A stretch of DNA of 64,000 bases from a bacterium (GTDB taxonomy: Bacteria > Planctomycetota > Planctomycetia > Planctomycetales > Planctomycetaceae), in contig WGMU01000093.1 in assembly GCA_016124895.1 (NCBI GenBank), positions 1 to 64,000 on the forward strand, in the 5' to 3' direction. The notes under the pieces are model-generated. The model ran no database searches and had not been told where the DNA came from. It saw only the letters and a list, made by a program, of their open reading frames with translations. The position numbers were made by a program, and so were the translations under genes. The stretch's first letter is position 1; every line of letters begins with the position of its first letter. This document shows, piece after piece, positions 3,322 through 54,692 of the stretch.

Positions 3322-3366
3322 AGTGCAGGCCGGGTCCAACGCTGCGCCGCTCCGGCATCTGACTGG

Positions 3367-3383
3367 CACTGGCTGAGCCAGTG
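3367..3383. repeat. Short palindromic (REP-like) element
   Basis: CACTGGC-TGA-GCCAGTG, a perfect 7-bp inverted repeat with a 3-base loop, lies just after the stop at 3321. A near copy with one wobble pair (CATTGGC-TCC-GCCAGTG) lies at 40069-40085. There is no T tract, so it is not a classic terminator. Confidence 0.6.
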
Positions 3384-3557
3384 GCGCACGGAAGTTGCCG
3401 GAACATCGTCGCTGCGTTTCTCGGTCCGGGCTGCTGAATTCGCGAAACCAAGCCGTTTGGCGTTCTGGAAAACGCGGCGGCAGGTGCCTATTCTTCGCCA
3501 AAGGGCGGCCCAGATCTCCGGGGTGGCCCCACGAGACAATCGGTGAGAGTCAACCGA

Positions 3558-3738
3558 GCCCCGGAGGGACGTCGGAAGCCATTCAGCTTCCAGTGTCCCT
3601 GCGGGGCTTGCCCTTTTGGGGATGCGGGTTTGCGTCCTGTTCCTCGTAGCGAAACTCGCGCAGAGTTTCGGCAGCAGGTCGGGAACATTTTTTCCCGAAC
3701 CAGCTTCCGGTCGAAAGTCTTTGCGGCTTTCGCTACGG
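3558..3738 (+). promoter_or_regulatory. Hairpin-rich leader region upstream of guaB
   Basis: The 467-base gap between 3321 and guaB contains several nested inverted repeats. First, 3558-3570 pairs with 3595-3607 (GCCCCGGAGGGAC / GTCCCTGCGGGGC, one mismatch), enclosing GGAAGC-CATTCA-GCTTCC at 3574-3591. Second, CGAAACTC-GCGCA-GAGTTTCG is at 3650-3670. Third, TCGGGAA-CATTTT-TTCCCGA is at 3679-3698. A perfect 10-bp pair CGTAGCGAAA (3645-3654) / TTTCGCTACG (3728-3737) can enclose the last two, giving a multi-branched fold ending about 50 bases before the guaB start. It may be a structured 5' leader or a cluster of dispersed intergenic repeats. No known purine riboswitch signature was seen. Confidence 0.5.
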
Positions 3739-5276: not shown

Positions 5277-6081
5277 GGGGTTTGTCGGGACGGCGGCGCT
5301 GGTCATTCTCGTCGGAGCCGCCGGATTCGACAGCGTTCGGGCCGCGGACCCCGGTCACGAATCGTTTCTCTCGAAGCCGCTCCGCTGGCTGAAAGGCCGC
5401 TCGGCTGAGAAACGGTTCGAGGAACTCAATGCGGCCGAACCAGCACGCCCGGCCGGGACGGCTGTCGTCAATCCAACACTCGACGCGACATCGGAATACC
5501 TTCCGGCCGAAGCGTCACAGTTCCAGCACGTCTCCGGCGATTTCGGGCTGCCGGGTGCGGCCACTGCGACGGCTCCGCGAGTCGCTCGCGTCAGCATGCA
5601 GGCTCAGGTGGACAGTCCGCGTGAACTCAAACGCGTGACCAGCATCCTGCCGTACGCGGACTATCAGCCGGAAACCGCGAAGATTGATCAGCAGGTCAGC
5701 CCCGACCTGGTCGCGCCGGAAGAGGTCAGTATTGAGGCTCCCGGCGAACCGCGGCGAATGGGCGAGCCGATCCTCTATCAGTGGCACGCCTCGAACATGT
5801 ACCACTATCCATTGTATTTTGAAGACCCGTCGATCGAACGCTACGGACACACACACGTCAACTATTTCCAGCCGGTCGTGTCCGTGGCCCGCTTTGGTGT
5901 GCAGCTCGTCGGCCTGCCGTATCAGATGACAATCGACCCGGTCTGGAAACGCCGCTATACGCTCGGCTGGTACCGGCCTGGCGAGTGCGCTCCGAAGCAG
6001 TACGGTCAGATTCCGTGGAACACGAAAGCCGCGATCAATCAGGCTGGCGTGACGACCGGTCTGTGGTTCGCGTTCCCGTAG
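5209..6081 (+). CDS. Conserved-looking planctomycete exported protein
   Basis: 290 residues if started at the ATG at 5209, which has GGGAG 10 bases upstream and overlaps the 3' end of guaB by 68 bases in another frame. Starts at 5254 or 5266 would give a tidier signal peptide ([20 protein letters not shown]). The middle is low-complexity, rich in Pro, Ala and Glu. The C-terminal 110 residues look like the conserved core: [58 protein letters not shown] recall similar exported proteins of unknown role in planctomycetes but cannot name a family. It may be translationally coupled to guaB, although a functional link is not evident. A strong terminator follows at 6123. Confidence 0.8.
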
Positions 6082-6122
6082 TCGACCACGGTCTCGAAAT
6101 CGTAACAACTCGATCTTTACAA

Positions 6123-6269: not shown

Positions 6270-6677
6270 ATGATTGAGAATTTTTCCGTGACCGAACCCA
6301 TTTCCCAGGCGGCGCTGATCCGGACGGTGATTGACCGGCTGCAGGCGATCATTGAGCAGGCTGAGGCGGAGACTAAGCCGCTGGAAATGGATCCGTTCCG
6401 CTCGCAGTTGTTCGAGCTGTTCGTCATGGCCGACGGAGCCGCGATGCTCGATGACTCGCTCGAGCCGAATCTCACGTCTGACTCGATCGCGAAGATTCTC
6501 GCCGAACGCTGGGAGCTGCGATCGGCGGCGGTCGAGTCGATGCAGCAGGCGTCGCCGCTGGCTCAGGAAAGCCTCTCGCGCATGCGGCTGCTGTGGTCCT
6601 TCCTGCGCATGTGGATGGAGTGGACTTACGCCTGGCAGCGCTGGCGTGAGTTTCACGACGGCGAAGCGACAGCATGA
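6270..6677 (+). CDS. Small hypothetical protein
   Basis: 135 residues, acidic and helical, starting MIENFSVTEPISQAALIRTV. The middle (FRSQLFELFVMADGAAMLDD) and the Trp-rich C-terminus (LLWSFLRMWMEWTYAWQRWR) look conserved-protein-like, but I recognise no domain. There is no signal peptide. The amphipathic Trp-rich tail could be a protein or membrane contact surface. Codon use matches the neighbours. It stands alone after the terminator at 6123. No clear Shine-Dalgarno sequence is visible before the ATG, so the start is provisional. Confidence 0.7.
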   Translation: MIENFSVTEPISQAALIRTVIDRLQAIIEQAEAETKPLEMDPFRSQLFELFVMADGAAMLDDSLEPNLTSDSIAKILAERWELRSAAVESMQQASPLAQESLSRMRLLWSFLRMWMEWTYAWQRWREFHDGEATA

Positions 6678-7149
6678 GGACCGCGGCGAGTCCTGAGACG
6701 CGGGTCGAGAGTCCTGAGACGGACAAACTCTGAACGGCGCGGGCGCCCTGTATGACCGCCCGCGGCCGATCATCTGCCTGCTCGCAGTGAGCTGCTTCCC
6801 ACTGCCGACTTGTCTCTCTGTTTACCGTTTACTGCCGCCTGTTGACGTCCCCTCCCATCCTCAAATCCGGCACAACGTGCAGCATCGACTGTGGCGTTCC
6901 GATCGCATTGCAATGAGTGCAACGGTCGCGGTGGTCTGGGAGTTGAGTAAATGCTTTCCGTTACGGCAAGAAAGTGCGCTGCCGTTTGACCGCTCATTGC
7001 CCTGAGCTATATCGCAGGTGAAATCTGGCGTGCTGCGCGCGTCAGGGATCCGCGTCAGGCGATGGTCGGGCACCTCGCCGCTCATTGGCCGGAACGTTTC
7101 TGGGCAGCAGAGTGGGACTCTGCCGTTCGCCGATCTGGAGTGATCGCTG
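6678..7149. other. Intergenic region, probable promoter of the FHA gene
   Basis: About 470 bases without a convincing gene. A 13-base direct repeat GAGTCCTGAGACG occurs at 6688-6700 and 6709-6721. Nothing else is recognisable. The promoter for the gene at 7150 presumably lies in the second half. Confidence 0.5.
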
Positions 7150-37089: not shown

Positions 37090-37119
37090 GGGGAGGGTTC
37101 CTCGGTGAGTTGCTAAGTA

Positions 37120-37197
37120 GGCCGAAACAAGCGGAGCGCCGTTCCGGCAGAGCCGAGTGAGACAGATTGCCGGAGCGGCGCTCCGCTTGATCCGGCC
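37120..37197. repeat. Long inverted repeat between genes
   Basis: 21-base arms AAGCGGAGCGCCGTTCCGGCA (37129-37149) and TGCCGGAGCGGCGCTCCGCT+T (37168-37188) pair with a single T-G wobble, and outer GGCCG / CGGCC extends the stem. It lies between the propeller gene and the ABC permease gene, without a T tract. It has the look of a dispersed MITE- or REP-like planctomycete element. Confidence 0.85.
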
Positions 37198-37207
37198 TGC
37201 ATGTGCG

Positions 37208-42306: not shown

Positions 42307-42414
42307 GACGCAAAGGCGCTGAGTCGCAAAGGATCGCGAAGAGATTTCGAAAACTCTGGGCGTTCTCGTTGTCGGCCATCTTTGCGAGCCTCTGCGACTT
42401 CGCGGCTTTGCGTC
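42307..42414. repeat. CGCAAAG-type inverted repeat between genes
   Basis: GACGCAAAG (42307-42315) pairs with CTTTGCGTC (42406-42414). The inner arms, CTGAGTCGCAAAGGATCGCG and CTTTGCGAGCCTCTGCGACT, are alike with mismatches. Related copies are at 50700-50733, 54594-54692 and 55757-55825, and halves lie at 1531-1550 and 1771-1790. Confidence 0.75.
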
Positions 42415-50844: not shown

Positions 50845-51894
50845 TCAGCCGCGTGTCTGATACTCGCGTTTGCCGCCGTCCGGGCCGATCTGGATGGTGT
50901 AGCTTTTGCTGTCTTTCGCAACGGACAGTTTGACGAAGAGACCGTCGCATTCGCCGAGCTGGCCGAAGTTGGCGATGTTCTCCTTCGGCGCCTGTTTCGT
51001 CAGATCGAGCTTCACGTTCTGATGAAGCTGGTACAGGTCCTTCAGCGACTTCACCTTGCGGAGCGTGTCCAATGTCAGCTCGTGCCCGCCCTTCGTCGGG
51101 CCGTTGCACATGACGGCGACGACGGGATCGATGGCGAGGACCAGAGCCGGATTGTTGCTCGTCGGCAGGCCGTGATGCGTGACCATGAAGACGTCGACCT
51201 GTCCGATCGGATTGTTCGGCGTCATCAGCTTGCCTTCGATGTTCCAGGTCAGGTCCCCGCAGGTCAGAAAGCGAAAGTCACCGAACGAAACGAGCGTACT
51301 GACGCTCGCTGCATTGTCCGACTTGTCGACTGCCTGTTCTTCGTGCAGCTTGGCGAACGGGTTGGGCTCGCCGCTGTTCGGGATGACGTCGCGGCTGGCG
51401 GTGACGACCTTCAGCGTCAGCGGCGTCGAGCCACTTTTCAGCGGCAGCAGGTCGCCAGGCTTGACGGCTTTCGACTCGTTCTGCGACGCCTTGCGGTACT
51501 CGGCAACACGTTCGAGGAACTTCGGGTCTTCCGCCAGGAAGTCCGGAATGCCGCGATCCCAGAACGATCCTATGCTGATCTTCTCGGTCAGCGCGGCGTG
51601 ATTGCCGTAATGGTCGAGGTGCCAGTGCGAGACCAGTGCGTGATCGATGTGCTGCACGCCGGCATACTTCTTCGCGACCTCGATGATGCGGTCCCGGTCG
51701 CGGTAGTCGTACTCGGGGTAACCCGAGTCAATCAGCAGACTCTCGCCCAGCGGCGTGACCAACAGCGTTGCGGCGCCGCCCTCGACATCAATGAAGTAGA
51801 TATCGAGTCGCCCGTCGTTCTGGTCAGCCTGAACGAGCGACGGCAGCAGCGAGAATGAAACGCAGGCGGCAAGCAGAAGCGAGGTCAGACGCAT
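50845..51894 (-). CDS. Exported metallo-beta-lactamase fold hydrolase
   Basis: 349 residues, ATG at 51894 with TTGGAG about 8 bases upstream and a signal peptide (TSLLLAACVSFSLLPSLVQA). The zinc motif HxHxDH is in LVSHWHLDHYGNHAALTE (near residues 88-95). The opening LDIYFIDVEGGAATLLVTPL, and the later GDFRFLTCGDLTWNIEG and DVFMVTHHGLPTSNNPALV, match ComEC/Rec2-like metallohydrolases that stand alone. The target (nucleic acid, lactone or other ester) is unknown. Divergent from murC. Confidence 0.9.
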   Translation of the reverse strand: MRLTSLLLAACVSFSLLPSLVQADQNDGRLDIYFIDVEGGAATLLVTPLGESLLIDSGYPEYDYRDRDRIIEVAKKYAGVQHIDHALVSHWHLDHYGNHAALTEKISIGSFWDRGIPDFLAEDPKFLERVAEYRKASQNESKAVKPGDLLPLKSGSTPLTLKVVTASRDVIPNSGEPNPFAKLHEEQAVDKSDNAASVSTLVSFGDFRFLTCGDLTWNIEGKLMTPNNPIGQVDVFMVTHHGLPTSNNPALVLAIDPVVAVMCNGPTKGGHELTLDTLRKVKSLKDLYQLHQNVKLDLTKQAPKENIANFGQLGECDGLFVKLSVAKDSKSYTIQIGPDGGKREYQTRG

Positions 51895-52041
51895 CGTGAG
51901 ACTCCAAGCGGATTAAAGATTGGCAGCGGCGGGCGACGAGAGTATCTGCGGCGACGGCGAGTGTCACTTCACCAGCGTGTTGCCGTCGGTCGAACTGGAA
52001 ACGCGTCTTCACTCGTCAAGATGCGGCCCGCTAGTGTTCGG

Positions 52042-52120
52042 TGTAGGCCGGACCGAGTGCAGCGAGTTCCGGCATTGCAGATGGCGCTGCCGGAACTCGC
52101 TGCACTCGGTCCGGCCTACA
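52042..52120. repeat. Perfect 33-bp inverted repeat upstream of murC
   Basis: The left arm at 52042-52074 begins TGTAGGCCGGACCGAGTGCA and ends AGTTCCGGCA. The right arm at 52088-52120 is its exact reverse complement. The 13-base loop is 52075-52087. It lies 32 bases before the murC start. As RNA it would be a very stable hairpin in the 5' region of the cluster. As DNA it looks like a dispersed miniature element. Confidence 0.97.
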
Positions 52121-52152
52121 GCTTCTGTACTTCTTCTTCGAACGCCCACCGA

Positions 52153-53574
52153 ATGCCGGTTTCCGAAGAACTGCGATCGCTGCTGAAACCCGGCTGTGTC
52201 CGGGCTGACGCAGCTCCCGTCGCGCATCTGATCGGCGTAAACGGCTCGGGCATGAAGGCGCTCGCTGAGTTTCTCCTTGATCTGGGCTGGAAAGTTCACG
52301 GTTCGGATACGCAGGCTCTGCCGAATGACCTGCCACCGGATTCCGTCTGGCACCGCGTCCGGTTTTCGCTCGGGCACGACACGGCAAATCTGGCCGACGA
52401 GACGGCGATCGTTGTTCACAGCCCGGCGATCGAAGCATCAAACCCGGAACGCGGGGCCGCGGTGCAGCGCGGGCTGCCGGTGCTTTCGTATGTCGAGATG
52501 CTCGCGGAACTGCTCAGCAGTCGGACGGCAATCTGTATTGCTGGGACGCATGGAAAGACGACAACGACGGCGATGGTCGCGACGATGTTGCGTGAAGCCG
52601 GCCTGTCGGTTTCGGCGATCATCGGCGGCGAGGCGATTGCCTACGGCCGCAGCGGCTGGGCGGGCAGTGGCGAGCTGATCGTCATCGAAGCCTGCGAGTA
52701 CCGGCGGCACTTTCTGCAGTTCGAACCGCACGTCGCCGCGATCCTCAACATCGAAGCCGACCACTTCGACTGCTTCGCGACGCTCCACGATGCTCAGGCC
52801 GCATTCGCCGATTTTGCGGCGCGTGTTTCGCCGAAAGGTCGGTTGATCCTGCCGGCCAGCGAGGCCAGTTCGCGGGCAGTCGCGAATCACGCAGCGTGTC
52901 CCGTCGAACGGGTCTCGATCGCCGCGAATGACGAATCTGCTGACTGGCGTGTGTCCGAAATCGTGGCCGTCGCCAGCGGATCGACATTCCGAGTGGAGTC
53001 TCCCGGCGGAGAATCTCAGGTCGTCACGCTGCCGGTTCCGGGGCAGCACAACGTCGGGAACGCTCTGGCAGCGATCGCAGTCTGCAGTGCGGTCGGAGTC
53101 TCGCTCGACGCGATCGCCGACGGACTGCAGACATTCCGTGGAGTTCGACGGCGTTTCGAGGTGCGTGGCGAGTTCCGCGGCGCGACGATTATCGACGATT
53201 ACGCGCACCACCCAACGGCGGCCCGGGCAACGATCGAAACGGCGCGGCGGGCCTTTCCGAACCGGCGCATCGTGGTCGCGTTTCAGCCGCATCAGGTCTC
53301 GCGGACGCAGCATCTGATGGACGAGTTTGCGGTGGCCCTGGCTCTCGCTGACGAAACACTGCTCGTCCCGATTTTTGCCGCCCGCGAGGACACGCAGATC
53401 GCCACTCGCACGCTGGGCGAACTGGCGGAGAAGACGAGCCGGAACGGGGCAAACGTGCGTGTTCTGACGTCGCTTGACCACCTGTCGGCAACTTTGGAGG
53501 ATTCCGCCCGGCCCGGCGATGTGTGGCTGCTTCTGGGTGCCGGAAACATCAATGTGTGTGCCTCGCCCAGATGA
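52153..53574 (+). CDS. murC: UDP-N-acetylmuramate--L-alanine ligase
   Basis: 473 residues from the ATG at 52153; the open frame extends upstream through the inverted repeat but without family sequence. MurC adds the first amino acid to UDP-MurNAc in peptidoglycan synthesis. Seen: the N-terminal Rossmann-like [23 protein letters not shown] motif [34 protein letters not shown] as in many MurC proteins, [10 protein letters not shown] and the DDYAHHPT region of the C-terminal domain. It heads murC-murB-ddl. Mpl is an alternative relative, but the gene order favours MurC. Confidence 0.93.
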
Positions 53575-54593: not shown

Positions 54594-54692
54594 CAGGCAT
54601 TGCAGCGCAAAGACGCAGAGGCGCCAAGCAACGCCAAGAGGTCACTTTGCGAAACTCTGCGTCTTGGCGGCTTTGCGCTGAGGTTATGCCTG
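54594..54692. repeat. CGCAAAG-type inverted repeat between murB and ddl
   Basis: CAGGCAT (54594-54600) pairs with ATGCCTG (54686-54692), and CAGCGCAAAG (54603-54612) pairs with CTTTGCGCTG (54671-54680); the interior is imperfect. It lies in the middle of the cell-wall gene cluster, 61 bases past the murB stop. Confidence 0.85.

Follow-up and report, generated by a model that had tools for sequence, protein, structure and literature searches.

In the 64,000-nucleotide stretch of DNA analysed here (the window), the start of murC is preceded at close distance by a perfect 33-bp inverted repeat. The sequence-only reading of the locus had taken such perfection to imply recent arrival or strong selection, and had suggested that the hairpin formed in the leader RNA might affect expression of the cell-wall cluster. 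Does the repeat serve murC, or does it belong to a class of elements with a life of its own? We conclude, with a probability of about 0.9, that the repeat is a REPIN (BIME), in which one GTAG-tagged REP occurs twice, head-to-head, in a miniature unit without genes of its own. Four features lead to this assignment: closely spaced inverted REPs, a GTAG-footed palindrome, many dispersed copies, and variation in presence and absence between close relatives. The REPIN upstream of murC is therefore probably a mobile element of a known kind. The host appears to be a planctomycete, judging from the best named MurC relative among the matches listed (mostly to Firmicutes), a Planctomyces sp. SH-PL62 MAG at 49% identity.

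Anatomy of the repeat and its setting

The arms, at 52042-52074 and 52088-52120, are reverse complements of each other (100% complementarity) around a 13-nt loop, and positions 52121-52152 lie between the end of the repeat and the murC ATG at 52153; both the repeat and its 32-nt distance to the gene are as first read. No perfect inverted repeat in the window is longer; of the 25 pairs listed, just one other is fully complementary, at 16 nt. Resampling the window 20 times with a first-order Markov model, with loops up to 300, gave no perfect arm above 14 nt, and perfect arms of 33 nt are far beyond chance. A genome search for GTAGGCCGGACCGAGTGCAG, the check that the earlier reading had proposed, returned six exact matches in the 8.13-Mb genome, two of them the murC-side arms, and none for the reversed control. 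Each arm consists of one GTAG-tagged REP (GTAGGCCGGA...TTCCGGCA), and the pair is a head-to-head dimer (Table 1). As single-stranded DNA the whole repeat folds at −49.7 kcal/mol, and a single REP arm folds weakly (−6.4 kcal/mol, z = −1.58).

The REPIN occupies a 258-nt gap between divergent genes (51895-52152). The product of the downstream gene is identified as MurC by TIGR01082 (404.3 bits, cut-off 335.1), and the start at 52153 agrees with alignments of its relatives. The murC frame is also open upstream across the whole REPIN (51961-53574); it contains further ATGs in frame at 52021 and, within the loop, 52081. The window also holds long imperfect inverted repeats of another type, with GCAAAG.../...CTTTGC motifs, at 42307-42414, 54603-54680 and 3645-3737.

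Table 1. Positions of the REP units, REPINs and flanking genes in the window
Feature	Position	Strand	Remarks
REP unit 1	52043..52074	+	Unit of the 32-nt class: GTAG tag and imperfect palindrome GCCGGA-C-C...G-T-TCCGGC; start of the perfect repeat one base earlier, at 52042
Spacer (loop), 13 nt	52075..52087	.	Differs from spacers of other copies; contains ATG (52081) in frame with murC
REP unit 2	52088..52119	-	Inverted, identical to unit 1; the repeat ends at 52120
Second REPIN of the window	37117..37200	.	33-nt arms, 18-nt spacer, 4 mismatches; same site occupied in sibling genome G001
Third REPIN of the window, degenerate	3325..3434	.	33- and 39-nt arms, 38-nt spacer; covariance-model cut-off passed by left arm only
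murC (UDP-N-acetylmuramate--L-alanine ligase)	52153..53574	+	32 nt downstream of the repeat
Metallo-beta-lactamase-fold gene	50845..51894	-	Lactamase_B domain; divergent from murC

A dispersed family of paired REPs

The arm pattern GTAGGCCGGAN{10,30}TCCGGCA has 51 matches in the genome, 25 of them forward and 26 reverse, and none in the reversed control. A covariance model of one REP, built from 27 arms, detected at least 118 REPs at E values up to 0.01, a lower bound given that 150 of 14650 candidates were scored. Neighbouring REPs lying within 120 nt form 42 pairs, 41 of them head-to-head, one head-to-tail and none tail-to-tail; 83 of the 118 REPs belong to a pair, with spacers of 13-50 nt. 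Across the 27 aligned arms G1, A3, G4 and the stem GCCGGA/TCCGGC are nearly invariant. Six of eight tested stem pairs do not vary at all, leaving the covariation count uninformative for or against the stem.

REP arms fall into three length classes (32, 33 and 39 nt). Dissection of 24 pairs showed that arms of equal length mostly have short spacers (13-19 nt in 8 of 11, the rest 22, 27 and 36 nt), and that arms of unequal length are separated by 21-48 nt. The murC-side copy is a 32/32 pair whose 13-nt spacer is, together with that of C34, the shortest seen, and the perfect match of its arms is explained by its two REPs sharing the 32-nt subclass and being separated by a short spacer. The sequence-only reading holds in part: a mobile copy fits a dispersed REPIN family that differs between sister species, but perfection as such does not single out this site, as 4 of the 11 same-length pairs inspected have no mismatches (the murC copy, C34, C129 and C134). 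The 11 same-length pairs contain 20 within-pair mismatches against a permuted mean of 27, with 180 of 10000 permutations giving 20 or fewer, a result no more than suggestive of concordance between the arms of one REPIN. By crude open-reading-frame calls, the 24 pairs lie in unidirectional (11), convergent (3) or divergent (1) gaps or within an open frame (6), three being undecided; the murC-side pair is counted among the six as an artefact of the N-terminal extension of its frame.

This organization closely resembles described systems. REPINs are inverted REP doublets that form hairpins, according to PMC3116915, and the elements described there share with ours the inverted doublet as unit, conserved ends, a less conserved spacer and folding into one hairpin; they differ in that the spacers here are shorter and the cognate RAYT is not adjacent in the own genome. 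PMC3733652 describes GTAG REPs, REPtrons and head-to-head dimers of like or unlike REPs (homo- and heterodimers); it also reports such repeats from the PVC superphylum and lists several families in R. baltica. The GTAG foot, the stem-loop and the head-to-head homo- and heterodimers of that superfamily all recur in the present family.

Occupied, altered and empty sites in relatives

Among 150 same-family genomes (the own genome included), the pattern GTAGGCCGGAN{10,30}TCCGGC has at least one match in 41, with 1 to 78 matches per genome, some of which are single or other palindromes (the reversed control gives between 0 and 2 per genome). In the sibling species G001 this pattern, slightly shorter than the one above, matches 78 times, against 55 in the own genome, and the exact 33-bp arms also occur there at other places.

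Sixteen own REPIN sites were queried by their flanks in this sibling, the last by one flank, and nine gave a flank match. Four of these nine are occupied in the sibling by a REPIN whose arm classes agree with the own (L045, window position 37117, L047 and L024). The sibling REPIN at L004 has one arm of 39 nt where the own arm measures 32 nt, that at L009 has two arms of the 33-nt class, with CTCTGC, in place of the own 32/32 pair, and L020 holds a lone REP beside a multi-copy flank; only the left flank underlies the comparisons at L009, L024 and L020. The remaining two sites, L001 and L049, are empty of REPs of this family between the flanks, a partial REP match lying about 800 nt outside the flank interval at L049. 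These differences between the own genome and the sibling indicate that units are gained, lost and altered at fixed sites, the behaviour expected of repeats that move or convert. Between the sibling flanks that match L049 (L279, G001:C14) a different GTAG-tagged hairpin, GTAGCCGGGGGTCGAAGTCCCCCGGA, stands in place of the own REPIN. A second palindromic repeat, GGTGGCTGGGGTCGAGTGCAGCGAGCCCCAGC, lies about 150-260 nt to the left of the REPIN at L029 and accounts for 20 of 44 match rows in the sibling genome.

The murC leader

Given its position 32 nt before the ATG, the repeat could be read as a hairpin in the murC leader that regulates in cis, an attenuator or an element governing RNase or ribosome access, selected for control of a cell-wall gene. 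Folding of the RNA from 52030 to 52175 is compatible with such a role and makes a leader hairpin physically plausible: the minimum-energy structure (−93.3 kcal/mol, z = −11) leaves the start region outside the long stem. However, the same repeat family is present at more than 100 other places, and a scan near the repeat gave neither a sigma-70-like promoter nor a terminator. In addition, the REPIN is absent from all 25 MurC loci that were judged in relatives (L065-L089; about 400-1500 nt upstream of each gene), where the loose pattern match upstream of murC in L085 is no REP; conservation upstream of murC, which the earlier reading had proposed to look for, thus failed to appear. The sibling, the only genome of the same genus, was left out of this count, its murC contig breaking inside the gene. 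When the murC upstream region was searched as DNA in that sibling, the flanking gene was not found, and of 36 matches 35 were to the REP and one, short, lay inside murC. No close relative stands among the listed MurC matches, and accordingly no empty site was seen at murC.

Matches to Rfam also speak against a regulatory element, being sub-threshold and to long-hairpin families, mostly microRNA models. An Rfam identity was rejected on the same results: the 17 matches at E values up to 1 all fell below the gathering scores and were mostly to microRNA precursors, and any long hairpin gives such matches. We consider selection of the hairpin for murC control improbable. What stands of the earlier proposal is a physically plausible hairpin in the leader; a role specific to murC finds no support in the 25 MurC loci or in the search for promoter- and terminator-like sites. 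The tempting story of a regulator for the cell-wall operon is thereby removed, and the hairpin takes its place in a known class of intragenomic repeats.

An intrinsic or bidirectional transcription terminator, or an insulator between the divergent genes, is less probable still. The hairpin is long and GC-rich, and a part for REPs in termination and in the stability of mRNA has been hypothesised (PMC3733652), but a T-run terminator was not found at the repeat and no coding transcript ends here, because both genes diverge.

Association with RAYT transposases

The REPIN reading leads to the question of the enzyme. Several RAYT classes have been distinguished, one of them mainly in Planctomycetes (PMC6006769). 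In the relative G058, a 185-aa RAYT (L219, 2316-2873; NF047646, 174.7 bits, cut-off 80) is flanked on both sides by REPINs, at 2171-2271 and 2870-2970, an arrangement that constitutes a REPtron. REP pairs also lie beside a broken RAYT in G112 and, as the GTAGGCTGG variant, beside one in G131, so that pairs of the family or of near-variant type occur at 3 of 30 loci from the RAYT search.

The own genome contains eight Y1_Tnp genes, and no strict REP lies within 1.5 kb of any of them; the REPtron arrangement is thus missing there. One of the eight, at C52:99107-99655, encodes a RAYT of the same clade as that of G058 (54% identity; NF047646, 162.3 bits, cut-off 80) and matches the E. coli TnpA-REP structure 4er8 with E = 7.1e-40. 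The nearest match of the REP model to this gene is weak and partial and lies 1.6 kb away (C52:101272-101299, 28.8 bits). A private inverted repeat brackets the gene instead (L062, about 6070-6086 and 6667-6683; C52:99069-99085 and 99666-99682), and no further copy of it was found in the genome at up to one mismatch. Because the own RAYT is without strict REPs and is bracketed by a private repeat, it is no more than a candidate for the cognate transposase, and we infer that a RAYT moves the family in this genome. The distribution over genomes speaks against a tight link between REPs and RAYTs: strong RAYT matches (E < 1e-40) were found in 11 of 15 REP-bearing genomes and in 8 of 16 REP-free ones; G011 (79% complete, with 21 pattern matches) gave no RAYT match at all.

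The miniature inverted-repeat architecture would also be that of the ends of an IS or a MITE mobilized by another transposase family. The GTAG foot, the internally palindromic arms, the variable spacers and the RAYT lying between such units in G058 all argue against this origin, and no target-site duplication is apparent in the 20-nt flanks inspected; we regard it as very unlikely. Perfect palindromes are a known type of assembly artefact, but an artefact or fold-back chimera is the least probable explanation of all, because the same perfect structure recurs at other loci (arms without mismatches at C34, C129 and C134) and the GTAG tag and class structure recur genome-wide and in other assemblies.

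For the REPIN before murC, these associations suggest the following sequence of events. In a single-stranded state, for example on the lagging-strand template, both arms would fold into one long hairpin; a RAYT would recognise the GTAG foot and the stem and move or copy the unit; and one copy would have landed in the murC leader. Any effect on murC would then be a side effect of the insertion.

A mismatched stem position and the comparison with E. coli

The planctomycete REP stem contains a position that is seldom paired. The base following GCCGGA and the opposite base preceding TCCGGC were read in 98 distinct places, restricted to arms in the loci examined with the exact stem and the next C/G pair: they are C·T in 58 and T·C in 31, together 89 of 98. 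The other places carry four standard pairs (three A-T, one C-G) and five other mismatches. The mismatch is not universal, because A-T prevails in G011 (13 of 21 pattern rows, counted by eye). We view the mismatched position as a mild novelty.

TnpA-REP of E. coli requires a conserved mismatch in the stem of its REP to be active, and it seems to matter more that these bases are unpaired than which bases they are (PMC8266576). The parallel between this bulge and the planctomycete mismatch may serve as a lead, and the resemblance extends to other features of repeat and enzyme. The E. coli REP consensus, reverse-complemented, has GTAGGCCGGA and TCCGGC in common with the planctomycete REP (PMC12306157). 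The G160/E161 tail of the E. coli enzyme contacts GTAG, and the four RAYTs compared here all end similarly, in W-G-E (-P) (PMC8266576 and PMC12306157; PDB 4er8). The two systems also differ: E. coli REPs have a double mismatch (A12A13-G26C27), whereas a single C·T or T·C is found here, one step nearer the foot. By our reading of the alignments, E or A replaces the bulge-contacting K82 of E. coli TnpA-REP here, and the own RAYT has H in place of R104. The REPIN family carries this resemblance, to the REPs of E. coli and to their transposase, into a distant phylum.

A further reading, which we put forward only tentatively and think less likely than not to hold in full, is that the planctomycete REPs may be substrates of E. 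coli-type (group 2) TnpA-REP enzymes, with the pyrimidine mismatch kept by reciprocal change between C·T and T·C, a natural counterpart of the E. coli laboratory result. The same reading would include the joint exchange of both arms where sister species have a REPIN at one fixed site; such an exchange might point to replacement or conversion of the whole unit instead of simple insertion and decay. A stem position that keeps its mismatch and the turnover of arms at fixed sites together raise testable questions on RAYT substrate choice and copying. A 13-kb contig of a viral collection also contains a perfect REPIN (L304, 4447-4522), its stem in the A-T form.
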